A stretch of 64,000 bases of DNA, from contig JAJFFH010000070.1 of assembly GCA_021776735.1 (NCBI GenBank), forward strand, positions 1 through 64,000. The letters are read 5' to 3'. The notes beneath the pieces were generated by a model. That model worked only from the letters and a program-made list of their open reading frames with translations, was not told the DNA's origin and ran no database searches. Source of the stretch: Planctomycetota bacterium. Lineage in GTDB: Bacteria > Planctomycetota > PLA2. The translations under genes and the position numbers were made by a program. Shown piece after piece: positions 3,534-63,683 of this stretch (within the stretch, counting starts at the first letter, position 1; every line of letters starts with the position of its first letter).

Positions 3534-3590
3534 AGCAAACGGACGGCGATTCACGCGCCCGTCGGCCATGAGCATCGCGGTCCGTTTGCT
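3534..3590. repeat. ATCGCCGTCCGT motif inverted pair (3534-3550 and 3572-3590)
   Basis: agcaaacggacggcgat ... gcatcgcggtccgtttgct; 17-bp arms, 1 mismatch; between convergent genes. Confidence 0.95.
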
Positions 3591-6451: not shown

Positions 6452-6470
6452 GCATCGCCGTCCGTACGCT
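6452..6470 (+). repeat. ATCGCCGTCCGT motif, intergenic
   Basis: gcatcgccgtccgtacgct, 3 nt after kdsB. Confidence 0.95.
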
Positions 6471-8266: not shown

Positions 8267-8310
8267 GCGTACGGACGGCGATACTTCGCAGACATCGCCG
8301 TCCGTTTGCT
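8267..8310. terminator. ATCGCCGTCCGT motif inverted pair, candidate bidirectional terminator
   Basis: gcgtacggacggcgat (8267-8282) and acatcgccgtccgtttgct (8292-8310) between convergent genes. Confidence 0.75.
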
Positions 8311-9687: not shown

Positions 9688-10611
9688 GTGCGACACCCCC
9701 TCTCGATTCACGCCCGCGCGGCAGCCGCCCGTTGCCGCCACTTGCGCACACGCGTCTTTCGCAAGCTCGCCAAGATGACGGGCCGCGCCCCGGCCCGGCC
9801 CCAAAGGGCCGTCCATGATGGCGCCCGCCCGAAAGTCGCGGTCACCGACATCCAGGCGGCCCTGACCCAACTCGGCATCGGCCAAGGCGACGCGGTTCTG
9901 GTCCACAGCGGCCTCAGCCACCTCGGGCGCGTCGAGGGCGGCGCCAAGGGCGTGCTCGCGCTGCTCCGCGAACACGTCGGCGAAACCGGCACGCTGCTCT
10001 TCCCCGCGTTCCCGTTCAACACCCTCATGCTGGGCTACGTCAAAAGCAACCCCGAGTTCGACGCCCAAAACTCCCCGGCGCGCATGGGCATGCTGGCCGA
10101 GAAAGCGCTGAAGGAATCGGATCGCCGCCGCAGCCTCCACACCACCCACTGCCTCACCGCTCTGGGCGCCGACGCGGACGCCTACGCCAAAGACCACGAA
10201 AAAGACATCACCCCGTTTGGCCCGAACTCGCCCTACCGGCGCCTGGCCGACGAAGGCGGCAAAATCCTCGCACTCGGCGTCGGCCTCAAGAGCGTGACGA
10301 GCTTTCACGAAGCCGAAGACCGCATGGGCGACGAGTTCCCGGTCCGGGTCTACCTCGACGAGACGTTCGAAATGCAGGGGAAAACAGCGGACGGACGGCG
10401 ATACGTGGTGAAGACCCGCTGCCACGACCCGTTGTTGTCCGCGGTCCGCGACTGCAACCTGATGCAGCCGCCCCTCGAACAGGCTGGCGCGCTAAAAACC
10501 GTGCCCGTCGGCGCACATTTCGCGATGTGCCTCGACGCCGCGGGCCTGAGCCAGACCCTGATCGCTCAAGCCCAGAAGAAGCGCACGATCTACGGTCGAA
10601 TCTGGGGCTGA
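9688..10611 (+). CDS. AAC(3)-family aminoglycoside N-acetyltransferase-like protein
   Basis: DAVLVHSGLSHLGRVEGG...TLLFPAFPFN...NSPYRRLADEGGKILALGV. Confidence 0.85.
   Translation: MRHPLSIHARAAAARCRHLRTRVFRKLAKMTGRAPARPQRAVHDGARPKVAVTDIQAALTQLGIGQGDAVLVHSGLSHLGRVEGGAKGVLALLREHVGETGTLLFPAFPFNTLMLGYVKSNPEFDAQNSPARMGMLAEKALKESDRRRSLHTTHCLTALGADADAYAKDHEKDITPFGPNSPYRRLADEGGKILALGVGLKSVTSFHEAEDRMGDEFPVRVYLDETFEMQGKTADGRRYVVKTRCHDPLLSAVRDCNLMQPPLEQAGALKTVPVGAHFAMCLDAAGLSQTLIAQAQKKRTIYGRIWG
10391..10402 (-). repeat. ATCGCCGTCCGT motif inside AAC(3)-like CDS
   Basis: acggacggcgat. Confidence 0.9.
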
Positions 10612-12165: not shown

Positions 12166-12179
12166 TGCGTTTGGTAGCC

Positions 12180-12242
12180 GCCCAACGCCTTGGGCGATCA
12201 GCGGCGACGCGAAGCGCGGTCCGCTGCATCGTCTAGTTGGGC
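12180..12242 (-). other. integron attC-like recombination site
   Basis: GCCCAAC (R'' type) and GTTGGGC (R' type) boxes; inner arms CGATCAGCGG / CCGCTGCATCG pair with one extrahelical base. Confidence 0.75.
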
Positions 12243-12539
12243 GGCGCGCCCGGGAACTGGTTTTCAGCCACAGAGGGCACCGAGATCACAGAGGCGTTCG
12301 AACGGGATTTCGCGGAGCTGAAACTCGACTGCGAGAGCCTCCTCGTAGATCGACTCCAAGAGACCGGGATCCATGTGGCGATGCGCCTCGATCGCCGCCG
12401 CGATGATCTGCTCGGTGAGCGGGTCTCCCATCTCTGTGACCTCTGTGATCTCTGTGGCCAGAACTTCTCCTCGTCCGCCCAACTACTACTTATCTGGTTC
12501 CGCATAGGACGAGGCCCTTTCGGATTCGTGCAGTCTATC
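12195..12539. repeat. 345-bp direct repeat, copy 1 (mate 63339-63683)
   Basis: same length, no indels, 23 mismatches by eye (~93% identity). Confidence 0.9.
12264..12431 (-). CDS. truncated GxxExxY-family protein
   Basis: MGDPLTEQIIAAAIEAHRHMDPGLLESIYEEALAVEFQLREIPFER then premature end. Confidence 0.6.
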   Translation of the reverse strand: MGDPLTEQIIAAAIEAHRHMDPGLLESIYEEALAVEFQLREIPFERLCDLGALCG

Positions 12540-14255: not shown

Positions 14256-15575
14256 ATGAGGTTCGCCATGTATCGCCGTCCGTTCCTGTTTCTCCAGCTT
14301 CTCCTTCTCCTGCCTCTCGCCACCACGACCGTCGCCCAGGAGCCCGAAACAGAGCCCGCGGACGACCCGATCGCCGCCGCAGTCAAGGCGCGGATGGACC
14401 GCGGCAGCGCGTTCTACAAGGCGAAGGAGTACGCCAAGGCGGAGCGGGAGTTCGAGAAGGCGGCCAAACTCGACAAGAGCCACGCGCTCGCCCACCTCTG
14501 GCAGGGGTATTGCCGGTACTACCAAAAGAACTACGCGGGGGCGATCGAGTGCTATACGGCCACGATCGAGGCGGACCCGGGGCACGCGGGACGCGGGCAC
14601 TACGCGCGCGGGCAGGCTCGGGCGCTCCTGAAGAAGCACGAGGGCGCGGTCGAGGACTTCTCCGCGGCCATCGCGAAGCACGGGAACTGGGCGGCAGCGT
14701 ATCACTATCGCGCGAACTCGCTCTTCGAGCTGACCCGGCTGGCCGAGGCGGCGCGCGACTACGAACGTTCGATCGAGCTGCAAAAAAACAACTGGTCGGC
14801 CTGGATGCAGCGCGCCAGGGTCAGCGAGGCGATGGGCGACTACGACGCCGCGGAAAAGGTCTACTCGCAGCTCATCGAGGCCAATCCGAAGTACACGAGC
14901 GCCTACATCGGACGCGGCCGCTGCCGGGCCCTGCTCGGCAAGCGCACCGACGCCGAGTTCGACTTCGGTCGGGCGATCCGGGAGGCCCCCGACGATCCCA
15001 CGCCGCTCTGCCAGCGCGCGCGCATCCACATGCTCTTTCACGACTTCAAGCGCGCGCTCGAGGACTGCGACGCCGCGCGCAAGATCGATCCCAAGCACTA
15101 CTACCCGTACTTCATCCGCGGCCTCGTGAAATACAACTACGGCAAGTTCCGTCCGGCCCGCGCCGACATGCGCAAGGCGATCAAGAAGATGGAGGCCATG
15201 GGCCAGGAGCCGGACTACCTGCATCTGTACCTCTGCCTCGTCCAGCGGCGCATCGGCAAGCACGAAGAGGCCCTCGCCGACCTCAAGAAGTACTACGCGC
15301 AGAAGAAAAAAAAGCCCGAGGAGTGGTACACGCAGATCGTCTCGTTCCTGACGGGCAAGATCGACGAAGCAACGTTCTTGAAATCCGCGGTCGATGAGAC
15401 CCCGAAGCGCACGCGCGAGCGTCGCTGCGAGGCGTACTTCTACGCGGGCACGTGCCGCCTGATCGACGGCGACAAGACAAAAGCCAACGTGTACTTCCGT
15501 GAGGCGATCGACACCGACGTCATTTCCTTCATGGAATACGAGACAAGCAAGATCGCGCTCGCGCAGAAACGATAG
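14256..15575 (+). CDS. secreted TPR-repeat protein
   Basis: signal peptide MYRRPFLFLQLLLLLPLATTTVAQ; multiple TPRs. Confidence 0.85.
   Translation: MRFAMYRRPFLFLQLLLLLPLATTTVAQEPETEPADDPIAAAVKARMDRGSAFYKAKEYAKAEREFEKAAKLDKSHALAHLWQGYCRYYQKNYAGAIECYTATIEADPGHAGRGHYARGQARALLKKHEGAVEDFSAAIAKHGNWAAAYHYRANSLFELTRLAEAARDYERSIELQKNNWSAWMQRARVSEAMGDYDAAEKVYSQLIEANPKYTSAYIGRGRCRALLGKRTDAEFDFGRAIREAPDDPTPLCQRARIHMLFHDFKRALEDCDAARKIDPKHYYPYFIRGLVKYNYGKFRPARADMRKAIKKMEAMGQEPDYLHLYLCLVQRRIGKHEEALADLKKYYAQKKKKPEEWYTQIVSFLTGKIDEATFLKSAVDETPKRTRERRCEAYFYAGTCRLIDGDKTKANVYFREAIDTDVISFMEYETSKIALAQKR
14272..14283 (+). repeat. ATCGCCGTCCGT motif at TPR gene start region
   Basis: atcgccgtccgt followed by tcctg. 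Confidence 0.9.
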
Positions 15576-15626
15576 GGCGGTTTGGGGGGCCAGGGGGCCC
15601 GATCCCGTTCTCGAACGACGTTCACG

Positions 15627-15693
15627 TTCACGTAGCGCTTGCCGAACACGCGGAAGTCGACCATTCGAACAACCCGCGACGCAGTCGCGACCC
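15627..15693. repeat. 67-bp perfect direct repeat, copy 1
   Basis: ttcacgtagcgcttgccgaacacgcggaagtcgaccattcgaacaacccgcgacgcagtcgcgaccc. Confidence 0.95.
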
Positions 15694-15758
15694 GAACCCG
15701 AACCCGAACCCGAGAAGCACTACGGCAGCTGACGAAGCGTTCACGTGCACGAACGACG

Positions 15759-15825
15759 TTCACGTAGCGCTTGCCGAACACGCGGAAGTCGACCATTCGA
15801 ACAACCCGCGACGCAGTCGCGACCC
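15759..15825. repeat. 67-bp perfect direct repeat, copy 2
   Basis: identical to 15627-15693; period 132 bp (22 x 6). Confidence 0.95.
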
Positions 15826-15880
15826 AATCCCAATCCCAACCCCAACCCCGATCCCGACCGCGACCCCGGGGGGCGCGTGG

Positions 15881-16869: not shown

Positions 16870-17916
16870 CTAGACCGTGAACGCTTCGATCGACAAAACA
16901 CGCGGCAGGGTGCACGGCAGCGCCTGCCAGCTCTCCGCACCGTCCGCGCTGGCGTAGACCGCGCCCGCCGTGTCGCCGAAGTAGATGCCGCCCCCGCCAT
17001 CGTGCGCCATCGCGCCGCGCAGGACACCGGCCCAGCACGGATGCGTCGGCAGGCCCTCGGCGCGCCGCTGCCAGGAGTCGCCGCGATCGTCGCTGGTGTA
17101 CACGGCGAGGTCGCCCTTGACCGGCATGCGGTACTCGTCGCTTTCCATCGGGAAGCAGAACAGGCGCCCGCTGTCCGGATCGCGCACGACCGGGAACCCG
17201 AACCAGGACGGCAGCCCCTCCATGCACGCGGTCCAATGGTCACCGCCGTCGGTCGAGCGGTACATACCCGTGTGGTCTTGCCGCCACAAGACATCGCCGT
17301 CCGTTTGCTGCTGGGCGAGTGCATGCACGCAAAACCCGATGTCCTTGAATTCCTTGTCCTCGATGGCGACGCGGATGCCCTCGTTCTTGGCCAGCCAGGT
17401 CTCGCCACCATCGTCCGTGCGCCAGACGCCGACCGCGGAGATGCCGACCCAGACGCGTTTCTCGTCGTTGGGGTCGACAAGCACGACGTGGGCGCAGAGG
17501 CCGCCCGCCCCCGGGAACCAGTTCGGGCGCGAGGCGTGCTCGTTGAGCGCGGGCACGGGTTGCCACGACTCGCCATCGTCCTCGGAGAGAAACAGCCCGG
17601 CCTGATCGACGCCCGCGAAGTGCCGGTTCGCGCCGGCGCGCAGCGTCCAGATCTGGTTCATCTTGCGGTCGCTGTCGGCGGCCCACGCCGGCCCGTTTTC
17701 GATCTGGCGCCACTCCTTCAGGTCGTCGCTGACGTGCACGGCGGCGCCGTAGACGCGACTCGCGGTGGCCGCCAGCCAGCGCCCGCTGGGCGACCGAGTC
17801 GTCGCCGTGAGTTTCCAGCCCTTGAAGAGCGGCCCTTCAACGGTCCATTCGCGCTTGTTCTCGGAGCGGCAGATGAATCCGCCCTTTTCGGTGCCCACGA
17901 TGACGACGGTTCCCAT
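16870..17916 (-). CDS. BNR/sialidase-like beta-propeller protein
   Basis: Asp-box-like repeats: SEDDGESWQPV, TDDGGETWLAK, SDDRGDSWQRR, SADGAESWQAL. Confidence 0.88.
   Translation of the reverse strand: MGTVVIVGTEKGGFICRSENKREWTVEGPLFKGWKLTATTRSPSGRWLAATASRVYGAAVHVSDDLKEWRQIENGPAWAADSDRKMNQIWTLRAGANRHFAGVDQAGLFLSEDDGESWQPVPALNEHASRPNWFPGAGGLCAHVVLVDPNDEKRVWVGISAVGVWRTDDGGETWLAKNEGIRVAIEDKEFKDIGFCVHALAQQQTDGDVLWRQDHTGMYRSTDGGDHWTACMEGLPSWFGFPVVRDPDSGRLFCFPMESDEYRMPVKGDLAVYTSDDRGDSWQRRAEGLPTHPCWAGVLRGAMAHDGGGGIYFGDTAGAVYASADGAESWQALPCTLPRVLSIEAFTV
17291..17309 (+). repeat. ATCGCCGTCCGT motif (full 19-mer) in BNR CDS
   Basis: acatcgccgtccgtttgct; encodes QTDGDV on minus strand. Confidence 0.95.
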
Positions 17917-20847: not shown

Positions 20848-20866
20848 AGCTGACGGACGGCGATGT
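20848..20866 (-). repeat. ATCGCCGTCCGT motif, left arm flanking hairpin repeats
   Basis: agctgacggacggcgatgt. Confidence 0.95.
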
Positions 20867-20910
20867 TTTTTTTGGGGGGGCTAGTGCGCGGGTGGGCTCG
20901 CTTAGCGGGG

Positions 20911-21145
20911 GAACCGCTAAGCGATGAACTCGGGGGCGCACGCCGCACAGGGTCTTTTGGCTCAACGGCTGACGCCGTTGAGGCTCTTGCGGGCGGAGGG
21001 ATCTATCGCTTGGCGGATGAACCGCTAAGCGATGAACTCGGGGGTGGGCGCGCACAGGGTCTTCTGGCTCAACGACTGACGCCGTTGAGGCTCTTGCGGG
21101 CGGAGGGCTCTTTCGCTTGGCGGAGGAACCGCTAAGCGATGAACT
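20911..21145. repeat. ~108-bp tandem repeat (about 2.2 units) with two hairpins per unit
   Basis: gaaccgctaagcgatgaact at 20911, 21019, 21126; CTCAACGGC/GCCGTTGAG and TCGCTTAGCGG/CCGCTAAGCGA inverted repeats. Confidence 0.92.
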
Positions 21146-21158
21146 CGAGGGCGGGTGC

Positions 21159-21177
21159 GCATCGCCGTCCGTACGCT
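21159..21177 (+). repeat. ATCGCCGTCCGT motif, right arm flanking hairpin repeats
   Basis: gcatcgccgtccgtacgct. Confidence 0.95.
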
Positions 21178-22937: not shown

Positions 22938-24993
22938 GTGCGAACAGTCTCGATCCGGACGAGCCTCCTCTTGAGCCTCCTGCTGCTGATCGTCGCGCTG
23001 GCGGGGACGCTGCTGGCCGCCACATGGATCGGCCGCAAGCAGGGCGTCGAGACGGTGTCGCGGGAGCTCATCGAAAACCGGAGCATGCTCGTCTCCGCGA
23101 AGCTGGAACGGCTTCTCCACCCGGTTCACCAGACCCTGGCACTGCTGGGCCAATGGGGCCGCAGCGGCGAAGTCCTTGAGCCCACGGACACGGCGCGCCT
23201 GAACGCCCTGTTCATCTCGCTGTGCCGCGAAATTCCGCAGGTCTCCTCGGTCAACACCGGAGACGCCGACGGCAACGGCTATCTCCTGCTGCGCCGACCG
23301 GGCGGTCGGTGGCACAACCGCATCGTGCGGCGCCAGGCTTGGGGCGACCGGACGCGCTGGGAGGAATGGACGAGCAGTACGTTGTCGGGCACAACCCGCG
23401 TCCGAACGTGGGAAAAGAAACTCGACTACGACCCGCGCCAGCGGCCGTGGTACACACTCGCGGCCGAGCGCTCCGGCAAGGGCCCGGCGTGGTCCGAACC
23501 CTACACGTTCGCCACAACGGGACAGCGCGGGATCACGGCATCGATCCGGGTCATGCCCCAAGAGGGCCGACCCGTACGTGATCGCCTTCGATATCCTGCT
23601 CGCGGACCTCACGGACTTCACCCGAAGACTCCACGTCAGCCCGCGGGGGCTCGCCCTGATCCTCTCTCCGATGCTCCAATTCATCGCACTGCCGCGCGAC
23701 AAGTCCCTCGAAACACCGGAGGCCCGCGCCGCAGCTCTTGAAAGCGAAGACGAAACTCTCGGCATCCCGCTCCTCCGAGACGGCCGCACCGCCTGGGAAG
23801 CTCGCCTCAAACACGGTGAGGCCGAGCTCGGTTACTTCCAGTTCGAAAGCGGCGGCGAAACCTGGTGGGCCGGCGCGCTCGCCACACACCTGGGCGACGG
23901 GCAGGCCTTTCGCACGATCGTTCTCGTGCCCGAGGAGGATCTTGCCGCCGACATCCTCGCGCGGCGCTGGCAAATCGCCGTGGCTGCCGCCGTGGCGTTC
24001 GTGTTGGCGGTGCTGCTCGCGATCTGGCTGTCGCGGCGCTACGGCAAGCCGCTTCGTGAGATCGCGGAACAGAGTGCGCGCATCAGTTCGTTCGAGCTGG
24101 AGCAGCCCGTGTCCTGCACCGATTCCCGCCTCGAGGAAGTGCGCACACTCGCTCGCGCGCAAGAACGGATGCGCGGCGCGCTCCAGTCGTTTTCGAAGTA
24201 CGTACCCGTGGACATCGTGCGCGAATTGACCGAACGCGGCGAGGCCGCGCAGGTCGGCGGGCGCCACGAGACGCTCACGATCTTTTTCAGCGACATCCGC
24301 GGCTTCACCGGCATCATGGAACGCTGCGATCCGGACCAGCTCGCCGCCCAGCTCTCGGAGTACTTCGAAGCCATGGTCGGCATCCTCAAGGACGAGGGCG
24401 CGACCATCGACAAGTTCGTGGGCGACGCCATCGTCGCGTTCTGGAACGCCCCCCACCCACGGTCCAACCACGCAAAGTCCGGCGTCGCAGCCGCCCTGCG
24501 CTGTCGCGACGACCTGAGCGCGCGCAACCAGCGATGGAAGGCGGAAGGCAAGCCGGCGTTGCGAACATGCTTCGGCCTCGCCACCGGCGCCGTGATCGTG
24601 GGCAACTTCGGCGCGCCCCAGCGCCTGTCCTACACGGTCTTGGGCGACACCGTGAACGTGGCGGCACGCCTGGAGACCACCAACCGCGCGTACGGAACCG
24701 ACATTCTCGTCTCCGAAGCCGTGCGCCATGCCGCCGAAGACGCCTACCACTGGCGCGAGATCGGCATCGTCTCGGTCAAGGGCCGCACGCAGCCGATCGA
24801 CATGTACGAGCCCCTCGGCCGGCACGGCGAGGTCGATGCCGCGACCCTGGCCTGGGCCCGACAATACGAAGCCGCGTTGGCGGGACACCGCTCGGGCAAC
24901 AGCGGACGGACGGCGATGCTTTTGGACGAACTGGACGAGCAGCGCCCCGGCGATCTGTCGGTAAGAGCCCTGCGCGACGCCTGCGGCATGTGA
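22938..24993 (+). CDS. class III adenylate/guanylate cyclase with N-terminal TM/sensor region, frameshifted near 23566
   Basis: FFSDIRGFTGIMERCDPDQLA, FVGDAIVAFWNAP, VLGDTVNVAARLE; ORFs 22596-23741 and 23578-24993 join. Confidence 0.9.
24906..24917 (-). repeat. ATCGCCGTCCGT motif in cyclase C-terminus
   Basis: acggacggcgat. Confidence 0.9.
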
Positions 24994-25113
24994 CGCGGAG
25001 GCGCCAGGAGCGCGCCCGCCTGGCGAGATCGAGCGCCCATGCTGGGCGCGTCGGTCGTGCCGCCGTCGCTTGAACCAGCAAACGCTACGTGAACGTCAGT
25101 CGTGAACGCGAAC

Positions 25114-25207
25114 GGGGTCGGGGTCGGGGGCGGGTTCGGGTTCGGGATCGGGATCGGGTTCGGGGTCGGGGTCGGGTTCGGGGTCGGGGGCGGCGGCGGC
25201 GGCGGGG
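25114..25207. repeat. hexanucleotide tract GGGNTC-type (~13 units)
   Basis: ggggtc ggggtc gggggc gggttc gggttc gggatc gggatc ... Confidence 0.95.
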
Positions 25208-25219
25208 CGACGGCGACAT

Positions 25220-25238
25220 ACATCGCCGTCCGTACGCT
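25220..25238 (+). repeat. ATCGCCGTCCGT motif next to hexanucleotide tract
   Basis: acatcgccgtccgtacgct. Confidence 0.95.
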
Positions 25239-30026: not shown

Positions 30027-30045
30027 AGCAAACGGACGGCGATGA
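30027..30045 (-). repeat. ATCGCCGTCCGT motif, intergenic, ~10 nt after stop codon
   Basis: agcaaacggacggcgatga. Confidence 0.95.
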
Positions 30046-30187: not shown

Positions 30188-30829
30188 CTACGGCAGCACT
30201 CTGTTCAACAGCTCGCGCGCGTCGGGTAGTTCTTCGCCGGCCGCCTCCTCCGCCGCGGCCACCGCACCGCGAATCTGATCCGCTGTCGCGCCCGTGCGTT
30301 CGGCGCCGTGCACATGCGCGCGCAACTGCGCCCTGAGGCCCATCACGGCGAGCATGGCCACGGCCATCAGTTCGCGGTCGGCGCGCGGCAGGAACGGGCG
30401 CGCCAAGACGCGGCCGTACGCGCCGCGCAGCGTCAGCCGGGCAAAATCCGGGTGCAGGTCCGTGAGCTTTTTCAACACCGCGGCGGCGTGCTGTTCGTAG
30501 ATCGCGTCGAAGTACGCCCTCCCGCGCCTGGCAACATCGCCGTCCGTTTGCTCTTGGTCCGATTCACTCGACTCGTCCCCTCCTTCCCGGGGCGGAGCGG
30601 GCGCGTCCGGAAGTGCTGCGTGCAACTCCTCGAAGGCGTCGATCGTGCGCGGGAACCCGGCGAACAGAAACACCTGCAGGGTCGCCTCGAACAGGTCGTC
30701 CGTGGAGACTCCGTCGGCGTGGGCAGCGGCGTACCAGGGCTTGAGGAGCGCGCGCTGGCCGGACGCGGCGGCGGCGGCGATGCGGGCGAGGTGGCGGGTT
30801 CGGCGCGCGCCCTCTTCGGACCGGAACAT
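30188..30829 (-). CDS. carboxymuconolactone decarboxylase-family protein (two AhpD-like repeats)
   Basis: AHADGVSTDDLFEATLQVFLFAGFPRTIDAFEEL; DRELMAVAMLAVMGLRAQLRAHVHGA. Confidence 0.78.
   Translation of the reverse strand: MFRSEEGARRTRHLARIAAAAASGQRALLKPWYAAAHADGVSTDDLFEATLQVFLFAGFPRTIDAFEELHAALPDAPAPPREGGDESSESDQEQTDGDVARRGRAYFDAIYEQHAAAVLKKLTDLHPDFARLTLRGAYGRVLARPFLPRADRELMAVAMLAVMGLRAQLRAHVHGAERTGATADQIRGAVAAAEEAAGEELPDARELLNRVLP
30534..30552 (+). repeat. ATCGCCGTCCGT motif (full 19-mer) in CMD-family CDS
   Basis: acatcgccgtccgtttgct; encodes EQTDGDV. Confidence 0.95.
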
Positions 30830-33682: not shown

Positions 33683-34372
33683 ATGCGCCTGATTCGCAGC
33701 GGCCCCGGCGCGCCGCCTGACAACCTGGCCTTGGACGAGGCCCTGCTCCGCTCGGGCAAGGAAACACTACGCCTGTACGCCTGGGATCCGCCCGGCTACT
33801 CGATCGGCTATTTCCAGCAAGCCGCCACGTTACCCGCGCCCCAAGACTTCGTGAGAGTGCGCCGCCCCACCGGCGGCGGCGCGATAGCGCACCACGGCGA
33901 ATTGACTGTCGCCTGGATCGGCCGCCACTGCTCCGTCGATCGCGCCTACGATCGAATCAACGAAATCATCCGCAACGCCCTCGCCGTATTCGGCATCGAT
34001 ACACACGCGGGAACCGCTCTACCGAAAGCCGCGCCCGACGGACTGTGCTTCGATGCGCACACGTCCTACGACCTGCTCGCGGGCGGAAAAAAGATCTTCG
34101 GCTCCGCCCAGCGCCGCGGCGGCGACCGTTTTCTGCTGCACGGTTCTCTCGTCCTGAAACCGAACCGATTCGCCCAGGGAGCGGTGTCGCTCGAAGAACT
34201 TCTGGGTCACCCGGTGGCGTACAACGAAGTGGAACAGGCCGTGATTGACTCCGCGACAAAAAGTCTACGGACGGCGATGTCTGCGGAGCAACCCGAAGCA
34301 AGCGAGTGGGCCCACGCGAAGACACTCGTCCAGGAGCGCTACACCAACGACGCCTGGACTCTGCGCCGATAG
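33683..34372 (+). CDS. lipoate/biotin-protein ligase family protein
   Basis: NLALDEALL; RVRRPTGGGAIAHHGELTVAWIG. Confidence 0.85.
   Translation: MRLIRSGPGAPPDNLALDEALLRSGKETLRLYAWDPPGYSIGYFQQAATLPAPQDFVRVRRPTGGGAIAHHGELTVAWIGRHCSVDRAYDRINEIIRNALAVFGIDTHAGTALPKAAPDGLCFDAHTSYDLLAGGKKIFGSAQRRGGDRFLLHGSLVLKPNRFAQGAVSLEELLGHPVAYNEVEQAVIDSATKSLRTAMSAEQPEASEWAHAKTLVQERYTNDAWTLRR
34267..34278 (-). repeat. ATCGCCGTCCGT motif in ligase CDS
   Basis: acggacggcgat (KSLRTAMSAEQPE). Confidence 0.9.
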
Positions 34373-35203: not shown

Positions 35204-35222
35204 ACATCGCCGTCCGTTTGCT
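35204..35222 (+). repeat. ATCGCCGTCCGT motif (full 19-mer), intergenic
   Basis: acatcgccgtccgtttgct. Confidence 0.95.
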
Positions 35223-42561: not shown

Positions 42562-42580
42562 AGCAAACGGACGGCGATGC
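42562..42580 (-). repeat. ATCGCCGTCCGT motif, intergenic at convergent gene ends
   Basis: agcaaacggacggcgatgc. Confidence 0.95.
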
Positions 42581-43258: not shown

Positions 43259-44704
43259 CTACCGGACCGCGACGTACCGACCGCCGGTCAAGTGCGCGAG
43301 GTTCGTCAGCAATTCGGCGTTTTGGTCCTGGGCGAGCCCCACGGTGTGGATCACGAGCCGACCGTAGCGCGTGCGCTCTTCGGTTTCTGCAAGCAAGAGC
43401 GCCGGATCGACGATCACGCCCACGCTCGGCTCACCGTCCGTGAGCAAGAACACCGTGTCGGCTCCGCTGCGCAGCGCAAACTCGAGTGCGGCGTACACGT
43501 TGGTGCCGCCCACCACCGCGCGGTCTTCCAGAAAGTCCAGCGCCGCTTCGCGGTTGCCCGCGTCGGCAGGCTTGAGACCGCGCTCCCACGCGCGAACGCC
43601 GCTGGCAAACAGGGCGACGTTGAACGTAACGTCCGCCGGCAGATCCATCAGCGATTGCATCAGGGCGCGCCGCGTGCGATCGATCCGCTTCTCGCGCTTG
43701 CCGCCCTTGCCGTCCATCGGAAAGATCATGGAGCCCGACACGTCGAGCAGATAGAGCACGCGCCGCGAGTGGGTCCGCAACCCGAAGAACGAAACATCGC
43801 CGTCCGTCTGCTTTTTTCGAAACCGCCGGACCGAACGCACCGCTTCCCAGTCGTCCCGATCCCGCCCGACAGCACGCGCCGTACGCTCTTCGACAAGCCG
43901 ATCGACCCAGCCTCCCGGCAATGTGCGACAAACCCGCGCCACTGCAAAACGCACCGCCGGTCGGGAATGGCGCGCCCACGCACGCACCAGAGCTTCCGGC
44001 GCATCGTGCCGCAACCGGGCAAACACGGCGGCGCCCAACAACTCGGGATCCCGCGCGCGCGATGGCGTGTCCTGCAACGCCCGCGTCGCTCGCGGATCGG
44101 GAATGCCGCCGAGCACGACGGCGCAGCGCCGTGCGAGTGTGTGATCGGAGGACCGCAGCCCCCGAAGCAGCGCATCGACGGCGTGGGCTCGGGAGCGGCC
44201 CGCAGACGAAAGCAGACGGACGGCGATTTGCCCGAGCGCCCAGGTGCGGAACTGGCGCTCGCTATGGCGCCGCGCCTGCAACGGCTGCTGGGGCATCATC
44301 AGGCGCGGCGTGCGAATCTTGTTGACGTAGCGTGCGGCGAACTCGCCCGGAGGCAGTTCCTCCATCGACCAGACGAGCGCAACGGTTTCGGCGACCGTCA
44401 AGCGCGCCAGCGTGCGGCGAAAGTCCGCCTGCTTGTCCCGCAGTCGCGTCCGGTACCGAAAGCCTGGGTAGAGGCGGGCGCGGATGTTGTTGGCCTGCGG
44501 CACTTGGTCGTTCACCGACGGTGGACGGCGGTGCAGGAGCGGCTCGAGGCCGCGGGCGTGCAGGCGGGCGACGGGATCGAGCCGGGTAAACGCGGCGCGC
44601 GGAACCGAGCGCAGGGTCGGCACCAGCGGATCAAACAGCCCGTCCGGCTCGGCAAACGCCGAACCCGCCAGCACCATTGCGAGAGCCAGGGCAACACGAC
44701 GCAC
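43259..44704 (-). CDS. secreted HEAT-like + VWA domain protein
   Basis: LYLLDVSGSMIFPMDGKGGKREKRIDRTRRALMQSL; TVFLLTDGEPSVGV. Confidence 0.88.
   Translation of the reverse strand: MRRVALALAMVLAGSAFAEPDGLFDPLVPTLRSVPRAAFTRLDPVARLHARGLEPLLHRRPPSVNDQVPQANNIRARLYPGFRYRTRLRDKQADFRRTLARLTVAETVALVWSMEELPPGEFAARYVNKIRTPRLMMPQQPLQARRHSERQFRTWALGQIAVRLLSSAGRSRAHAVDALLRGLRSSDHTLARRCAVVLGGIPDPRATRALQDTPSRARDPELLGAAVFARLRHDAPEALVRAWARHSRPAVRFAVARVCRTLPGGWVDRLVEERTARAVGRDRDDWEAVRSVRRFRKKQTDGDVSFFGLRTHSRRVLYLLDVSGSMIFPMDGKGGKREKRIDRTRRALMQSLMDLPADVTFNVALFASGVRAWERGLKPADAGNREAALDFLEDRAVVGGTNVYAALEFALRSGADTVFLLTDGEPSVGVIVDPALLLAETEERTRYGRLVIHTVGLAQDQNAELLTNLAHLTGGRYVAVR
43794..43812 (+). repeat. ATCGCCGTCCGT motif in VWA CDS
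   Basis: acatcgccgtccgtctgct; encodes KQTDGDV. Confidence 0.95.
44211..44227 (-). repeat. ATCGCCGTCCGT motif in VWA CDS, opposite orientation
   Basis: agcagacggacggcgat; encodes QIAVRLLSS. Confidence 0.95.
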
Positions 44705-44765: not shown

Positions 44766-45092
44766 GTGTCGAACTACACTCGGGTCTGTCCCGCGGCCGA
44801 TCTCGCCCCCGCAACGGCCCGCCTGGCGAAGATCGGGAGCCAGGACATCGCCGTCCTTCGGCTTACGGACGGCTCATTACACGCCATCGAAGACGCCTGC
44901 CTGCACGCTGGCGGACCGCTGCACGAGGGCACGCTGGACGGCGCGATCGTGACCTGCCCCTGGCACGGCTGGAAATTCGACGTAAGGGACGGCTCGTGCA
45001 GCCTGAATCCGTGCGTCAAGCTGGCTTGCTACGGCGTACGCGAACGCGACGGATTCATCGAGGTCCGCGGGCCGCCGGCGCCGGCTTCGTAG
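44766..45092 (+). CDS. Rieske [2Fe-2S] ferredoxin-like protein
   Basis: CLHAGGPLHEGTLDGAIVTCPWHGWKFD (CxH...CxxH). Confidence 0.93.
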   Translation: MSNYTRVCPAADLAPATARLAKIGSQDIAVLRLTDGSLHAIEDACLHAGGPLHEGTLDGAIVTCPWHGWKFDVRDGSCSLNPCVKLACYGVRERDGFIEVRGPPAPAS

Positions 45093-46337: not shown

Positions 46338-47270
46338 CTAGCTCGGAGGCTCGAACGCGCGGAGTCGTTTGGCCAGGACTTTCGCGGACCGTTGCCAGGT
46401 TTGTTTGCGCGCGTGATCTTGGGCGGCTTCCAGCTCTTGGGGGGTTGCGGCCATCGCGGCTCGGACGGCGGCTTCCAGTTCGGCTTGGGATTCTCCGTAG
46501 AACGCGTGTTCGCCCAGCGTTTCGCGAAACGCCGGAAGGTCGCGCACCACCACTGGACGGCCCAGCGCCATGGCTTCCAGCGCAACCATGCCGAACGCTT
46601 CGCGTGTCGCCGGGCACAACACGACCGCCGCCGCCGCGATCTCGCACCACAGTTCATCTTGCGGGAGCCACTTCACGCCGCGACCAACTTCGCGGAGCGG
46701 CAGGGCAACGCAATTAGCCAATTGGCGTGCAATTCTTATACCCTTATGCGCGGGACCCGGATCGACCATGAGCAAGAGCGGACGGACGGCGATGTCGCCG
46801 TAGCGGTCTCGAAGAGCCTGAGCGTCCGGCACGGACACGGCGTTGGGGACGACGGTAGCGTCGATGCCCCACGCCTTGCGCACCGCGGTGCTCACGGCAA
46901 GCACACCCGCGGCGCGACGCAGGTGCCGGCGAATGAGCGCACGGCGCCACCACGGTCCGCCGTCGTCGTGCAGCGTGATCAACGTCGGTACTTCCGAGGA
47001 CGCCGGGTAGTGGTCCGTGATCAAGACATCGCCGTCCGTCGGCGTCCTCAGGGTTCGAAACCGTCGGAAACGGGCCGTGGCACGCACCGGAAGCCGGCGC
47101 ACCTCCACGCCGGGCGGAACGATCGCCTCCGGCGTGTCTTCGGCGAGCAGGAAGAGGAGGTCGTAGTTTCCGAGCTCGCGCAAGGCGCCAAACAGGTGGC
47201 GGGCGCGAAGGCCCGCGCCGCCGGGCGGGTCGCCGTAGGCCGTTGCGTTGATCAGTACACGCACGCTCAA
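46338..47270 (-). CDS. GT4-type glycosyltransferase
   Basis: LCPATREAFGMVALEAMALGRPVVVRDLPAFRETLG. Confidence 0.88.
   Translation of the reverse strand: MSVRVLINATAYGDPPGGAGLRARHLFGALRELGNYDLLFLLAEDTPEAIVPPGVEVRRLPVRATARFRRFRTLRTPTDGDVLITDHYPASSEVPTLITLHDDGGPWWRRALIRRHLRRAAGVLAVSTAVRKAWGIDATVVPNAVSVPDAQALRDRYGDIAVRPLLLMVDPGPAHKGIRIARQLANCVALPLREVGRGVKWLPQDELWCEIAAAAVVLCPATREAFGMVALEAMALGRPVVVRDLPAFRETLGEHAFYGESQAELEAAVRAAMAATPQELEAAQDHARKQTWQRSAKVLAKRLRAFEPPS
46777..46795 (-). repeat. ATCGCCGTCCGT motif in glycosyltransferase CDS
   Basis: agcggacggacggcgatgt; encodes GDIAVRPLL. Confidence 0.95.
47026..47039 (+). repeat. ATCGCCGTCCGT motif in glycosyltransferase CDS
   Basis: acatcgccgtccgt; encodes TDGDV. 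Confidence 0.95.
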
Positions 47271-51000: not shown

Positions 51001-52904
51001 AAAACATCGCCGTCCTTGGCTTCCTCGTCCTGATTCTCGTCGCCACGCTCGTCTGGTGGGCCACCGACGGGCATGGCGGACGAGCACTCGAAAGCAAACG
51101 GACGGCGATCTCCGCCGAGAATCCGCGGGGCGGGTCTTTGGTAGGGGTGAGGCCTTCGGACACCTTTCGGGCAACGTCCTCGGACACCGCGGGCGCGCCT
51201 CGCGCGACCAACATCGTGGTGGTGTCCGCTCAAGGGCAGCCGATCGCGGAGGCCACCGTGCGCATCGGCGAACATGCCGAGCTACGTACCGGTTCGGATG
51301 GCTCAGTCTCGACGCGAGCCGCACGACCGATTCGGATCGTGGCTTGGGCGCGCGGATGGTTTCCGAATCGCCGCACGGTCTTCGGCCGCGATCCCGGCAC
51401 GGTGCGTATTGCACTCAAGCCAGGCATGGCGCTCGCGGGGGTGGTCGTCCTCGACGATTCCGGCGCTGCGGCCGCCGGCGCCGTCGTGCAGTCGGGACCG
51501 CTTGAACGGATCGCGGACGAGCACGGGCGTTTTGAACTGCCTGCGGCGCCGAGCAGGTTTCGCGTGCGCTATCCCGGCTACTACCCGACGTACGCGGGGC
51601 TGCACCCGGCCCGCCCGACCATCGAGGTCCGGCTTGGGCGCGGCGTCACGGTATCCGGTCGGGTCATGGACGAAAACGGCCGGCCAGTCGCCAACGCGAA
51701 GGTCGTCGCTGCCCGCAATACGAAGCTGGGGACCATCTTCACCACGAGCGCATGGCGCCGCGCCACGGTGCGAACGGACCGCGACGGGCGCTACACGCTT
51801 CGCGGAGTGCCCGGCACCAAGACCTACATCTGGACCGTCGCGGCCTCCGCTTTCGGCTACCGCTTCGGCATGGGCACAACGTTCGATTCGCGTACCGCAG
51901 GCCCCCACGAACGCCCGATCGTTGTACGGCCGCGCGCCCACGTCGTCGTGAGCATCGTCCCCGCGACGAGAGCGCGGATTACAGTCGATGGAGTCCCTGC
52001 CGAGCGGCAACCGGACCAGACCTACATTGCCGCCCCCGTCGCGGTCGGCGTGCGGAAGCTCCTGGTTCGCGCCCTCGGCTACCGCACGACGGAACGCGAC
52101 GTGGCCGTACGCGAAGGTGCGCGTCACGACATCACCGTGAACCTCACGGATGGAGCAGTGCTGCAAGGTGTCGTGGTCGATACGCGGGACCGGCCGGTGG
52201 CAGGCGCATTCGTGGGATTCGGGGAGAAACTCGACGCGACCGCACGAACCGACACGCGCGGCCGGTTCTTGATGCGGGGACTTCTTACCGGGCCGGGCCC
52301 GCTCACCGTGGAGTACGAGGCCGCCGGCTTCCTGACTTCCGTGATCGACAACGTCACGCCCGGTGACGCCACGCTGCGGGTCGTCCTACGAGCCGGACCG
52401 CGCGTCGTCGGACGCCTCGATCCGGTCCCCGCCTACCGGAGGTTCGCGCCGCTCGTCATCTGGGGCGACGACGACGCCATGAGCGGGTGGATTCCGGTCG
52501 ATGACCACGGCCGCTTCGAAATCCGCTGGGCACCAGCGAACGAACCGTTCTGGCTGCGCATCAAGCACGGCAACGTGCCGCTGATCTGGAGTGGCCTCAA
52601 GGTTGCGCCGGAGCAGGTCCTCGACCTCGGCGTTCTTCGCCCGCGCGCCGGGTTCACGCTATCCGGACGAGTAGAAGACGATCAGGGCCGGCCGCTGGTC
52701 GCCACGATCGACTGCGCGAGTGTTCCCTCTGATCTGGGAATCACCCACGGCACATCGTCAGGAACGGACGGCGAGTTCTCCATCCGGCATCTGCCCCCCA
52801 TCGAGGTCGAGCTCGCGGCCAAGGCGGACGGATACGAGCCCACGACCGTACGCGTCCGCACCGATGGTGGACGCGCACGGATTCGGCTACGCCCGAAGGG
52901 CTAG
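50997..52904 (+). CDS. carboxypeptidase-regulatory-like (CarboxypepD_reg) multi-domain protein, N-terminal TM
   Basis: repeats VSGRVMDENGRPVANAKVVA, LQGVVVDTRDRPVAGAFVGFG, LSGRVEDDQGRPLVATIDC. Confidence 0.85.
   Translation: MKNIAVLGFLVLILVATLVWWATDGHGGRALESKRTAISAENPRGGSLVGVRPSDTFRATSSDTAGAPRATNIVVVSAQGQPIAEATVRIGEHAELRTGSDGSVSTRAARPIRIVAWARGWFPNRRTVFGRDPGTVRIALKPGMALAGVVVLDDSGAAAAGAVVQSGPLERIADEHGRFELPAAPSRFRVRYPGYYPTYAGLHPARPTIEVRLGRGVTVSGRVMDENGRPVANAKVVAARNTKLGTIFTTSAWRRATVRTDRDGRYTLRGVPGTKTYIWTVAASAFGYRFGMGTTFDSRTAGPHERPIVVRPRAHVVVSIVPATRARITVDGVPAERQPDQTYIAAPVAVGVRKLLVRALGYRTTERDVAVREGARHDITVNLTDGAVLQGVVVDTRDRPVAGAFVGFGEKLDATARTDTRGRFLMRGLLTGPGPLTVEYEAAGFLTSVIDNVTPGDATLRVVLRAGPRVVGRLDPVPAYRRFAPLVIWGDDDAMSGWIPVDDHGRFEIRWAPANEPFWLRIKHGNVPLIWSGLKVAPEQVLDLGVLRPRAGFTLSGRVEDDQGRPLVATIDCASVPSDLGITHGTSSGTDGEFSIRHLPPIEVELAAKADGYEPTTVRVRTDGGRARIRLRPKG
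51093..51111 (-). repeat. ATCGCCGTCCGT motif in CarboxypepD_reg CDS
   Basis: agcaaacggacggcgatct; encodes ESKRTAIS. Confidence 0.95.
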
Positions 52905-54254: not shown

Positions 54255-56834
54255 CTAACGCCGGGATTCGACGCCGATCAGGACCTCCGCCAGCTCCGCC
54301 TTGCCCTTCGGCGTCACGCGAATGAGCTTGGCGCTGCGCTTTTTGGGCAGGCGCAACTGCACAAAACCCGGCCCGCGCACAACCGTCACGTCAGCGACCT
54401 CGCGCGGCTTCTTGCCCCTCGTTGCGCTTAGAGTCCACTCACCCGGGAGCTTCTCGCCAAACAGGGTCACACTGATGATCTTGCGCTCCGTGCGCTTCCA
54501 CGCGATGTCCAGACCCGTCTCGGGCACGGGGATCTTTTGGCCGACGCGCTTGCCGTCGATCAGCTTGGCGTCCAGCAGCGGCGACTTCTCGACCGGCGGA
54601 TCGCCGTCATGCATGAATTTTGCACGTGCCATCACCTGATCGCCGTTGACGAACAGCTCGAGACGCGGCTTGCCCTTTGGAGTGTAGACCAACTCGAGGG
54701 GCTCGCCGCGCCCCACCAGAATCGGTCGCCACGAACTCAACGGAAGATCCTTGCCGTTGACGACCAGGGTGCCGCGCCCCCGCGCGCCGAGCTGAAACAG
54801 CGTGCCTTCGGGCAAGTCCAGACGCCCGTTCAGGCGGTACGTCCTCGCCGGCGCAAGATTCCCGGAGGGGTCGAGCACGACCGGAACTCGCCGTCCGTTT
54901 GCTTCGGTCCGGATTCCCTCCAGCCCCGGGAGCGAACTCGCGAGTGTTCGGGCAAACACCGCCGGCGCGAGTGGCTCGTCGTGCACGAGATGCTGCGCAC
55001 GATACGCGTATCCGTCGGCAAAGACCGCGCGCCACTGGAGCTTGATCGGTCCCGGTCCGATCTCTGCGAGTCGCTTCGGATCGACGGGCCCGCCGCCCCA
55101 CAAGAGCTCATGCGACTTCGCGCCCTTGCAGCGGTTCGTGCCGGGGTCCCACACGATCTTGCGAGCGTCGTTGCGGATCTCGGCGGTCAGCGTGGCGTAC
55201 GACCGCGTTTGTACGTCACCAACAACCGCGACCACCCGGATGTCGTGGTAGCCGTCGTCGAGCCTGATCGTGTTGAGCTCGAGTTTGTCTTGCCGGCGTC
55301 CGTTGACCCACAGCTCGTAGCGCAGACGTGCGCCGTCTGCGTTCTTTACCTGCGGCCGGAAGGCGACGGTTCCCTTCCAGGGGCCCTGCGGCGCACCCGG
55401 GTTGACCCACAGGCGATCCGTGAACGGCCGCGCCAGCCCGTCGCCACAGATCAGGAGCTGATACGGCCCCTCGACACTCTGGTAGAACGCCTCGGCCAGC
55501 GAATGGCCCTCCGCGTAGAACACGTGAATCTGCGGGACCGGGAACTTCCACTGAAGCGCGAGGGGCTCCTGGACCGAGCCGCTCGCCCCCGCCGCGCCGT
55601 AGCGCAAGAACTCGCTCAGCTTGGTCTGGCTCTTCGAGGCGAAGTTGCCGCCGTGGCTCGTCAGGTGCTCACAAATCGCGCCGCCGTAGATTCGGCTCTT
55701 GGACTTCTTCCAGTCGAAGTTCGCAATGCCAACGACCGCTCCCATCACGTCCGCACAGTCCTGGGGAATGTCGGCGTCGATCAGTTTGGCCGGGCGACCG
55801 AGCACGCGCAACCGGCGCAGGGCATCCTCGAAGTGACCTTGCCGCGTACGGGTGCGAACGTTCTTGTTGCGGCAAAAATACACGGTTCCCCGCGGCTTGG
55901 TGCCGTCGGTCTTCGCGGCGGCATCGAGATAGCGCAGAATTTCCCCGCGCGAGTTGCCGCGTTCGCCCGTGTAGCCGAGCATCGTGCACAAGAATGCGTT
56001 TTGTTGGGATGCTACGAAACCCAAGCGGGGCGCGAGCGTGGACCGGCTCGCAACCTTGGTGCGCAGCGCAGCCTGAAACTTCGGATGGCTTCGCAGGCGC
56101 CGCAGCAGCCCGTCGCGCTGCGCGACGGCCGCCGGAAAGCCATTGCCGATCGCGCGCGCGAGCGACGAAAAAGCATCGCCGTCCGTTCCTGTCTGTGCGA
56201 GGCATCGCGCCAAATGAAACGACAGCGCCGGGTTGCCCGGATGGCGCTGCACGAGTCGCCGAAAGATCGCCGCCGCCTTTTGGAACCGGCGCGCCTGCAT
56301 CTCCTGGGACGCCTGCTTGATCTCCGCCTTGTCTTCAGCCGTGAGCCGCGGTTTCTTGAGGCGGAAGTACGGATTGGTGTCGGGCTTCCAGAACTCCTCG
56401 CCGGCGAGCACGCGATGCATGAGATACGTCGCGCCGGTGAGCGACGCCTGGTTGCCGACGAACCAGCGGCTGTTGCCCTCGCCCTCCGGCTTGTTCTTGA
56501 AACGAACCGCATAGGGAAAGTCCGCGGAGTACGTGATGAGGTCGATCTGGCCTTCGAGCCCACGCGCCTTCAAGAACGCGAGAATCGGTCGCGCGATAAG
56601 GCTCTTGAACTGGTCCAGCGTGATCACGCGCAGGTGCGGAATGGCGCGGAGTACACAAACGTGAGACTCCGGGATGTCGCGCATCGCGCGGTACCGATGC
56701 GCCAGCTCGCGCGACAGCGGGGAGTCCCCGTTGACGACCACGAGGGATGTCTCGGGACCGCCACCCGCACACGCATGTGTCGGAGCGAACGTCACGGACA
56801 AGACGGCAAGGCAAAGGGCAAGAACAGCACGCAT
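54255..56834 (-). CDS. TIGR03790-like secreted protein
   Basis: signal peptide; SLVVVNGDSPLSRELAHRYRAMRDIPESHVCVLRAIPHLRVITLDQFKSLIARPILAFLKARGLEGQIDLITYSADFPYAV. Confidence 0.75.
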   Translation of the reverse strand: MRAVLALCLAVLSVTFAPTHACAGGGPETSLVVVNGDSPLSRELAHRYRAMRDIPESHVCVLRAIPHLRVITLDQFKSLIARPILAFLKARGLEGQIDLITYSADFPYAVRFKNKPEGEGNSRWFVGNQASLTGATYLMHRVLAGEEFWKPDTNPYFRLKKPRLTAEDKAEIKQASQEMQARRFQKAAAIFRRLVQRHPGNPALSFHLARCLAQTGTDGDAFSSLARAIGNGFPAAVAQRDGLLRRLRSHPKFQAALRTKVASRSTLAPRLGFVASQQNAFLCTMLGYTGERGNSRGEILRYLDAAAKTDGTKPRGTVYFCRNKNVRTRTRQGHFEDALRRLRVLGRPAKLIDADIPQDCADVMGAVVGIANFDWKKSKSRIYGGAICEHLTSHGGNFASKSQTKLSEFLRYGAAGASGSVQEPLALQWKFPVPQIHVFYAEGHSLAEAFYQSVEGPYQLLICGDGLARPFTDRLWVNPGAPQGPWKGTVAFRPQVKNADGARLRYELWVNGRRQDKLELNTIRLDDGYHDIRVVAVVGDVQTRSYATLTAEIRNDARKIVWDPGTNRCKGAKSHELLWGGGPVDPKRLAEIGPGPIKLQWRAVFADGYAYRAQHLVHDEPLAPAVFARTLASSLPGLEGIRTEANGRRVPVVLDPSGNLAPARTYRLNGRLDLPEGTLFQLGARGRGTLVVNGKDLPLSSWRPILVGRGEPLELVYTPKGKPRLELFVNGDQVMARAKFMHDGDPPVEKSPLLDAKLIDGKRVGQKIPVPETGLDIAWKRTERKIISVTLFGEKLPGEWTLSATRGKKPREVADVTVVRGPGFVQLRLPKKRSAKLIRVTPKGKAELAEVLIGVESRR
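54885..54903 (+). repeat. near-match of motif in TIGR03790-like CDS
   Basis: aactcgccgtccgtttgct; encodes EANGRRV. Confidence 0.8.
56173..56191 (+). repeat. ATCGCCGTCCGT motif in TIGR03790-like CDS
   Basis: gcatcgccgtccgttcctg; encodes TGTDGDAF. Confidence 0.92.
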
Positions 56835-57576: not shown

Positions 57577-57595
57577 CAGGAACGGACGGCGATGT
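57577..57595 (-). repeat. ATCGCCGTCCGT motif overlapping ankyrin gene start codon
   Basis: caggaacggacggcgatgt contains the ATG at 57592. Confidence 0.92.
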
Positions 57596-58271: not shown

Positions 58272-59452
58272 CTACCGGCCCAAGCCCGGCCACACCGGGC
58301 GGCGGCGACCGGTCGTGAATACCCAACGGCGGTCGTGCGGGTCGCCGTCCTGCTTGTAGTGCAGCGTCACGCGGTACAGGCTCTTCGGCGCCAGCGGCGC
58401 GCGCGGAATGATGCAGATCGTCTTGCGGTTGTCCTGGCGTTTCTTGTTCGCCGGGTTGCCCGGCCATGACACGAGGACCGGCACGGGGAACGCGCCGCGG
58501 CGCACGACGCGCTCGAGCTTGGCCCGGACCTCGGAAAACGTTGCGCCGTCACGAAACGTGAGCGTGATCGGAAACCCCGGCTGCTTGATCTGCGGCGGAT
58601 ACGGACGCGGCGCCTCGGGCGGAAAATGCGTCGGCTGCAACGCGGATCCCGGCGCGGGCACGATCACGGGATCGCTCCACAACCGTTCCTCGACGCGCGT
58701 CTTGCCGTCGATCGCGGTGTAGCGCGCGGAGTGCCCGATGCCGATCGCCCGCGTCCCCGGATTCATGAGCGGTAGGCGGTGATAGAACGACGCGTAGGTC
58801 ATGAGCACGCTCATGCCCGGCTTTTCCTGCGACAGCATCGAACGCCGCCCCGCGAGCTCGCCCTTCTCGGTCATGGGCGCATCGCCTTCCTCGGCGTAGT
58901 GCTTGAACCCGTTCTTCTCCATCCACGCGCAGTGCTCGGTGCACCACGAACTCACCTCGGGATCGAAGTCCACCGGCGGCAGCCCGTTGATCAGCCGCCA
59001 GTAGTTGAACTGCCGAAACGTCTTGTTCTGCGCCGGATCGACCGCCACGCGCCGCGCGCGCCAGTGCACGAACGAACCGTCCGCCTCGACCTTCCACGTC
59101 ACGCGCAGCAGCTCGATCACGGCGGTCTTTTCAAGCGGCAGCACGTAGTTCATGCCGGTGAGCGCCCAGCCGTCCACGCCCTCCTCGTCGAACCGCCCGT
59201 CGCCATCGACATCGACAAACAGCACGTTCAGCCGATCGACGCGCCCCTTGCGTACGCCGGGCTTTTCCGCGAGCTTCTTGCCGTCCGCCAGGCGGTACTG
59301 AAAGCGGACCTTCTTGTACTTCCAGCGGGTCGGAGCGAGCCGCGATTTTTTCATGGGGGGCGCGGGGGCGGAAACATCGCCGTCCTTGGCTGTCGCCGGA
59401 CCCGCCAGCCCCGAAAGCAGCGCGCAACACACCGAGAGCCATCGTCGCATGG
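58272..59452 (-). CDS. secreted CAP/SCP-domain-like protein
   Basis: [42 protein letters not shown]...[22 protein letters not shown]. Confidence 0.75.
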
Positions 59453-61134: not shown

Positions 61135-61241
61135 AGCCAACGGACGGCGATTCACGCCCACGGTGAACCGGACGCGCCCGCTGCTGGAACCTGACGAAAG
61201 TCCGCGTAGCGAAGTTTCGAGTGCATCGCCGTCCGTATGCT
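61135..61241. repeat. ATCGCCGTCCGT motif inverted pair between hutU and hutI
   Basis: agccaacggacggcgat (61135-61151) and gcatcgccgtccgtatgct (61223-61241). Confidence 0.95.
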
Positions 61242-63145: not shown

Positions 63146-63323
63146 ACATGAATCCTATGCCGCCCCAACGACTCCGTCAAGGCGCCCCCCGCCGCCGATC
63201 GCGCCAGCAGCGGCCAGCTGATGGCGGTCCTCAGATCTTCACGCTTTTTGCTCCACCTGTATCGAACCCGAAAGTCGGGGGCTCGACCTGACTTTGCGTA
63301 GCAACTCATCGCGCCGCCGTGCG

Positions 63324-63386
63324 GTCTAACGCCTCGGCCGATCAGCGGCGACGCGAAGCGCGGTCCGCTGCATCGTCTTGTTGGGC
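63324..63386 (-). other. integron attC-like recombination site
   Basis: minus strand GCCCAAC...GATGCAGCGG...CCGCTGATCGG...GTTAGAC; arms differ by one extrahelical base. Confidence 0.8.
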
Positions 63387-63683
63387 GGCGCGCCCGGGAA
63401 CTGGTTTTCAGCCACAGAGGACTCCGAGATCACAGAAGCGTTCGAACGGGATTTCGCGGAGCCGAAATTCGACTGGGAGAGCCTCGTCGTGGATCGACCC
63501 CAAGAGACCGGGATCCATGTGGCGATGCACGTCGATCGCCGCCGCGATGATCTGCTCGGTGAGCGGGTCTCCCATCTCTGTGACCTCTGTGATCTCTGTG
63601 GCCAGAACTTCTCATCGTCCGCCCAACTGCTGCTTATCTGGTTCCGCACAAGACGACGGCCTTCTGGACTCGTGCAGTCTATC
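63339..63683. repeat. 345-bp direct repeat, copy 2 (mate 12195-12539)
   Basis: ~93% identical, ungapped by eye. Confidence 0.9.
63408..63575 (-). CDS. truncated GxxExxY-family protein, copy 2
   Basis: same reading frame as 12264-12431 remains open. Confidence 0.5.
   Translation of the reverse strand: MGDPLTEQIIAAAIDVHRHMDPGLLGSIHDEALPVEFRLREIPFERFCDLGVLCG

Follow-up and report, generated by a model that had tools for sequence, protein, structure and literature searches.

Uptake sequences and comparable genomic words

Sequence-tagged DNA uptake had been described in only two bacterial families by 2016 (PMC5031613). Inverted terminator pairs have been reported for both USS and DUS (PMC7811141; PMC2397512), and uptake sequences are reported to be scarce in newly acquired DNA (PMC7811141). 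DNA uptake in H. influenzae is reported to be independent of the orientation of the USS (PMC1939737). For DUS, the receptor ComP is known, and DUS dialects span a family. Nothing relevant on sequence-tagged uptake in Planctomycetes was found in the literature searched.

Control genomes were located by the USS or DUS word itself, and their group was inferred from that word; we take them to be of the Pasteurellaceae and Neisseria types. Pasteurellaceae-type genomes contained 1,052-2,437 copies of the USS 10-mer AAAGTGCGGT, and a Neisseria-type genome contained 1,437 copies of the DUS 12-mer ATGCCGTCTGAA, in each case with strands near 50:50.

Two further kinds of abundant genomic word allow comparison. 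Known Chi sites comprise 5-8 bp and are normally conserved within an order; the Chi sites of E. coli are strongly co-oriented with replication. The HIP1 word is palindromic, comprises 8 bp and has a link to methyltransferases; its copies arise by substitution.

A lineage-specific word in a planctomycete genome

The 12-mer ACGGACGGCGAT is present in 1,520 exact copies in a planctomycete genome of 5.97 Mb, with 762 and 758 copies on the two strands. Base composition predicts about 1.4 copies genome-wide, and the reversed control sequence was found once. Fifty-eight relatives, four of them from the same family, hold 0-11 copies each. When 392 genomes of the phylum, this one included, were searched for CAAACGGACGGCGATG with at most one mismatch, 639 matches were obtained here and no more than 3 in each of the other 391 genomes. 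The word is thus lineage-specific and missing from the other genera of the family; a sister species was not part of the comparison. Among the GTDB contigs covered by an exact scan, which may not have included this genome, the 18-mer gave only scattered single matches.

No analogous dispersed word was detected in the approximately 130-230 kb sampled from each of the relatives G001, G002 and G003. A candidate word from G003, CCAATGCGGGACC, was rejected, as it forms local tandem arrays and is not genome-wide. L030 and L034 of this relative contain local arrays of CCAATGCGGGACC units, and two arrays terminate in AGGTTCCGGTGGATAACTCC.

The word resembles USS as a non-palindromic, genome-wide sequence with more than 1,000 copies, equal on both strands and located in genes and spacers. 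A rigid core, graded AT-rich flanks, inverted pairs at gene ends and the presence of competence genes are further likenesses. It differs from USS in its sequence, its unrelated lineage and its stricter core, and uptake is only inferred. With DUS it shares the length of 12 bases, a copy number in a genome of the order of 1,400, inverted pairs that resemble terminators and a spread through the core genome. The sequence is again another one, no receptor has been identified, and the DUS dialects extend over a family, unlike this word.

Copies in the 64-kb window

The window, the whole stretch of 64,000 nucleotides that was analyzed, contains 25 exact copies of ACGGACGGCGAT. A 14-mer searched with up to three mismatches gave 47 matches, compared with 13.2 +/- 3.1 in shuffled sequences. 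A VWA/HEAT-domain gene (43259..44704, minus strand; Pfam VWA_3 1.5e-12, VWA_2 1.5e-6) carries two opposite copies. The copy at 43796..43807 (minus) encodes KQTDGDV, and the copy at 44216..44227 (plus) lies over QIAVRLLSS. The full-length orthologue in G003 (46% identity) reads FEDASV and EFARRLNEL at these sites, without a gap at either.

Further copies lie within coding sequences of unrelated families. Those on the plus strand lie in an aminoglycoside-acetyltransferase-like (10391..10402, KTADGRRYVV), an adenylate-cyclase-like (24906..24917, NSGRTAMLLD), a lipoyl-ligase-family (34267..34278, SLRTAMS) and a CarboxypepD_reg (51098..51109, SKRTAIS) coding sequence. Those on the minus strand lie in a BNR/YCF48-like (17293..17304, QQTDGDV; DPKEPDT in a relative, gap-free), a carboxymuconolactone-decarboxylase-family (30536..30547, EQTDGDV) and a TPR (56175..56186, TGTDGDAF) coding sequence. 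A glycosyltransferase gene also contains two opposite copies, at 46782..46793 (plus, GDIAVRPLL) and 47028..47039 (minus, PTDGDVL). Intergenic copies occupy 3539..3550, 20853..20864 and 42567..42578 on the plus strand and 21161..21172, 25222..25233 and 35206..35217 on the minus strand. Other copies are located at a gene start (14272..14283, minus), at a gene end (30032..30043, plus) and over the ATG of an ankyrin-repeat gene (57582..57593, plus). An inverted pair at 8271..8305 (8271-8282 plus, 8294-8305 minus) resembles a hairpin or terminator. The remaining copies are at 6454..6465 (minus), at 61140..61151 (plus) and, in opposite orientation and 84 bp from the latter, at 61225..61236 (minus).

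Variants with A at position 2, AAGGACGGCGAT, occur on the minus strand in a Rieske-type coding sequence (44847..44858, QDIAVLRL), in a predicted N-terminal anchor (51006..51017, LKNIAVLGF) and at 59376..59387. A degenerate copy lacking the final T, GGACGGCGAG, is found at 54885..54898 (minus). The initial annotation had named the two opposite copies in one VWA gene and the peptides KQTDGDV, QIAVRLLSS, EQTDGDV, QQTDGDV, GDIAVRPLL, ESKRTAIS and TGTDGDAF, and all of these were confirmed; its EANGRR copy is present only as this degenerate form.

In reverse reading, the position-2 A variant gives KNIAVL(G), which was observed within hydrophobic leader-like segments, predicted N-terminal leaders, of unrelated proteins (contig C20 at 297989 and 222379, C3 at 10540, C67 at 80383 and window position 51006).

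Anatomy and genomic placement

The anatomy of the word was established on 1.88 Mb of the genome, a sample of 30 whole or partial contigs that includes the window. Sites were collected by the fixed ten-base core GGACGGCGAT, which does not vary. Copies in which position 2 is A or C number 504 in this sample. The asymmetric, non-palindromic core is 5'-A[C/a]GGACGGCGAT-3', and the preferred form is about GNGAAAGCNAACGGACGGCGATGTCT. The flanks on either side show a gradient that extends from about -12 to +16 (about 28 bp), A-rich upstream and pyrimidine-rich downstream, and the motif information amounts to about 33 bits over 32 positions. Sequences that differ from the 12-mer by one mismatch stay close to background in 0.83 Mb, except for A at position 2 (39 versus 213 exact copies) and, weakly, G at position 12 (10 copies).

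Coding sequences contain 256 of the copies, intergenic DNA 243, and five cross gene edges, in a sample that is 83% coding according to a simple purpose-made gene caller. Convergent gaps, which make up 21% of intergenic bases, hold 74 of the 240 classified intergenic copies. Copies in tandem gaps are closer to stops than to starts (99:37). They show no orientation to transcription (70 versus 66), and an RNA-level signal or a dedicated terminator was rejected on this ground. All 11 pairs closer than 50 bp are in opposite orientation; nine of them are head-to-head hairpins such as that at 8271-8305.

Origin of the copies

The comparison drew on orthologues from three genomes of other genera in the same family (G001, G002 and G003) and from one of the same order (G006). 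Alignments without the word and without gaps were obtained for RecG, CoaD, IspF, FolC, TsaD, YchF, both sites of IspD, a branched-chain-aminotransferase-like protein, a deaminase, FtcD and both VWA copies. The RecG site adjoins helicase motif VI and reads TSPSF here versus GHASS, GAGASF and GGTDAY in relatives; the FolC site reads ERIAVRG here versus ERITIDG and ERIAVDG. Compared with distant solved homologues, CoaD and PPDK (on another contig) have no gaps across the site. The MoeA site, the second of the FolC copies and the site in one LplA comparison are located in segments of variable length. Since most of the copies compared sit at positions that are gap-free in orthologues, they arose in place by base substitution. 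Of the two possibilities raised by the initial annotation, selection or insertion acting on the DNA, insertion failed on these alignments.

DNA level and protein level

Copies in coding sequences occupy all six frame and orientation classes; TDGD accounts for 138 and IAVR/IAVL for 65 of the 256 in 1.88 Mb. Together with the intergenic copies, this confirms the annotated observation that the DNA word is kept while the peptide changes with the frame. At the flanking AGC positions, intergenic copies have A in 85%, G in 88% and C in 86%, compared with 55%, 60% and 54% in coding sequences. The position-2 A variant, which changes TDGD to KDGD and IAVR to IAVL, occurs 56 times in coding and eight times in intergenic DNA (Fisher p = 1e-10). 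The fuller intergenic flanks and the near restriction of the A variant to coding sequences place the optimum at the DNA level; protein constraint forces compromises on the word. Selection at the DNA level, or drive, is thereby supported, by the fuller intergenic form and the use of all frame classes.

The encoded peptide differs in relatives for RecG, CoaD, IspF, FtcD, LplA, the YCF48-like/BNR protein and both VWA sites. The initial annotation would have been refuted by peptides conserved in orthologues devoid of the motif, and this was met only locally, in YchF (4/4 relatives) and TsaD (3/4). As DGD is kept in these relatives without the word, the word can complete itself where a protein nearly spells it. 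In most orthologues the peptides differ. Peptides common to unrelated proteins (TDGDV, IAVR, SKRTA) should be read with caution, as they may be imposed from the DNA level.

Strand-specific spacing

All pairs of the 504 copies were analyzed in the motif-bearing contigs (1.75 Mb). In consecutive bins ending at 50, 100, 200, 500, 1000, 1500, 2000 and 3000 bp, 0, 1, 1, 4, 10, 19, 24 and 61 same-orientation pairs were observed, whereas 3.6, 3.5, 7.9, 22.1, 35.7, 36.7, 36.1 and 71.7 were expected (ratios of 0.00, 0.29, 0.13, 0.18, 0.28, 0.52, 0.66 and 0.85). Opposite pairs showed a three- to fourfold excess below 100 bp, a ratio of 1.25 at 100-200 bp and ratios of 0.85-1.10 beyond. Between 200 and 2000 bp, 57 same-orientation pairs stand against 128 opposite pairs (p = 2e-7), and in three contig groups the counts at 500-1000 bp were 2:7, 3:14 and 5:16. 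Each strand is under-dispersed in 5-kb windows (variance/mean 0.70-0.77). Same-orientation copies are hence depleted within about 2 kb and opposite copies are not. With repulsion restricted to the same strand, two opposite copies in one gene, as in the VWA gene, are the rule.

The strand difference does not correlate with GC skew (Spearman 0.0005), and replication polarity of a Chi- or KOPS-like kind was rejected for this reason. The small USS spacing control comprised 100 sites from one genome and, from a second genome, 50 sites on the plus strand. Pairs on the same strand were scarce only below 500 bp (7 versus 20 expected). At 500-2000 bp, the genome with both strands listed had 33 same-orientation and 34 opposite pairs, compared with 53 and 108 here (Fisher p = 0.025, with the reservation of the small control). 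Same-strand depletion below 500 bp in the USS sample thus contrasts with a strand-specific spacing up to about 2 kb in this genome. This spacing adds a new constraint, since it suggests a directional reading of the word, and any functional model must account for it.

Uptake machinery homologues and motif-free contigs

The genome encodes homologues of a type IV pilus motor set, ComEC and DprA, which is no proof of competence. A PilB-PilT-PilC cluster is present. Nine PilT-family ATPases scored above the cut-off and six gave weaker matches, some in adjacent pairs (contigs C11, C17, C34, C42, C54, C59, C64). The ComEC-like frame of 798 aa and DprA both matched below the curated cut-offs. ComEC and DprA occur in most bacteria.

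A total of 126 kb lacks the 12-mer with A[CA] and has two matches to the 10-bp core only. It comprises the small contigs C8, C9, C10, C12, C13, C15, C18, C23, C24 and C28 and the first 20 kb of C19 and C27. Reading by eye, without a family search, identified tyrosine integrases on C8 and C9, a type I restriction HsdR/HsdM pair on C9, an RHS-repeat protein on C13, and a ParB-like protein and a RecB-like nuclease on C19. These contigs are possibly foreign DNA, which would fit the scarcity of uptake sequences reported for acquired DNA, or mis-binned, which has not been excluded.

Proposed function

On balance, and by a narrow margin, we favor the reading that the word works like an uptake signal sequence of the USS/DUS type. 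This is inferred; uptake or transformation data are lacking, and a receptor has not been identified. Uptake or recombination as the process maintaining the word is an inference as well. Shown is the starting point, approximately 1,500 copies on both strands kept at the DNA level in whichever frame the local protein tolerates. A putative pilus-tip or pilin-like receptor of the competent cell would prefer word-bearing DNA. Retraction of the type IV pilus would import this DNA, and ComEC and DprA would hand it on to recombination. Word-bearing alleles would replace word-less ones, resulting in spread and perfection of the word by molecular drive, whether or not selection for uptake of self-DNA contributes. 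The spacing pattern is shown, its mechanism inferred: reading of the word would be limited to one strand or one direction and would reach over about 2 kb, rendering a second copy on the same strand redundant.

Several points speak against the uptake reading. The small USS control did not show the strand-specific repulsion at 500-2000 bp, and uptake in H. influenzae is reported not to depend on orientation (PMC1939737), but the pattern found here concerns the spacing of copies and not uptake as such. The ComEC and DprA matches are below cut-off and such genes are common. With one-mismatch copies nearly absent, the core is stricter than that of USS. The motif-free contigs are mostly small and may be mis-binned.

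A bolder reading remains possible. Tagging of self-DNA may have arisen independently a third time, in a lineage distant from Pasteurellaceae and Neisseriaceae, with a tag read on one strand. The two strands would then bear separate sets of tags, each set evenly spaced and reaching over about 2 kb, and sequence-specific uptake would be tied to the entering strand or to directional recombination. If true, an independent case of an uptake tag would make drive versus self-recognition testable by comparison.

Alternative explanations

The main rival is a strand-read, Chi-like recombination or repair signal. A helicase-nuclease that processes DNA ends would recognize the word on one strand and then change over to recombination; one site per strand every few kilobases would be enough, and close neighbours on that strand would be redundant. 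In its favor, same-orientation pairs are depleted in all bins to 3 kb, opposite pairs beyond 200 bp are near expectation, each strand is under-dispersed, and the pattern holds in contig subsets at 500-1000 bp. The word shares with Chi that it is over-represented, and its strand-specific spacing suggests that, like Chi, it may be directional and read on one strand. It differs in the absence of replication polarity, in its length (with about 33 bits over 32 positions it extends far beyond Chi) and in its lineage specificity, being missing from genomes of the same family. We regard this explanation as unlikely.

If the word were HIP1-like, DNA modification, mismatch repair or nucleoid structure would maintain it, without any role in uptake. 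Cyanobacterial HIP1 (PMC4390886) is a precedent for a frequent word that is present in both genes and spacers and spreads through substitution. The present word is asymmetric and much longer, its flanks are graded and its spacing is strand-specific, which makes this rival very improbable.

Little credit is likewise given to the spacing rule as a by-product of deletion between direct repeats, without function. Deletion affects direct but not inverted repeats, and the depletion peaks at short distance. Against this, no depletion of direct repeats is seen for other 12-16-mers of the genome (at 200-1000 bp, 551 direct versus 271 inverted pairs of 12-mers), and we infer that a range of 1-2 kb is long for repeats of 12-20 bp.

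A self-inserting short mobile element (MITE/REP-like) would account for many dispersed near-identical copies and inverted pairs, but it is practically excluded by orthologue alignments that mostly show no insertion, by graded flanks without sharp edges and by the location of about half of the copies inside intact genes, including RecG, TsaD and YchF. Conservation of a TDGD/IAVR peptide at the protein level can point to DGD in YchF and TsaD relatives, yet it is virtually ruled out by the six frame and orientation classes, the intergenic half of the copies and the differing peptides in most orthologues.

Other repeats in the window

A tandem repeat of about 107 bp occupies 20898-21158, between the opposite word copies at 20853 (plus) and 21161 (minus). 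A direct repeat of 88 nt is found at 15624-15711 and 15756-15843, 132 bp apart, and its ends are C-rich hexamer tracts; G-rich tracts at 25100-25207 resemble the hexamer tracts of this repeat. A direct repeat of 300 nt, 94% identical, is present at 12177-12476 and 63321-63620, 51 kb apart.
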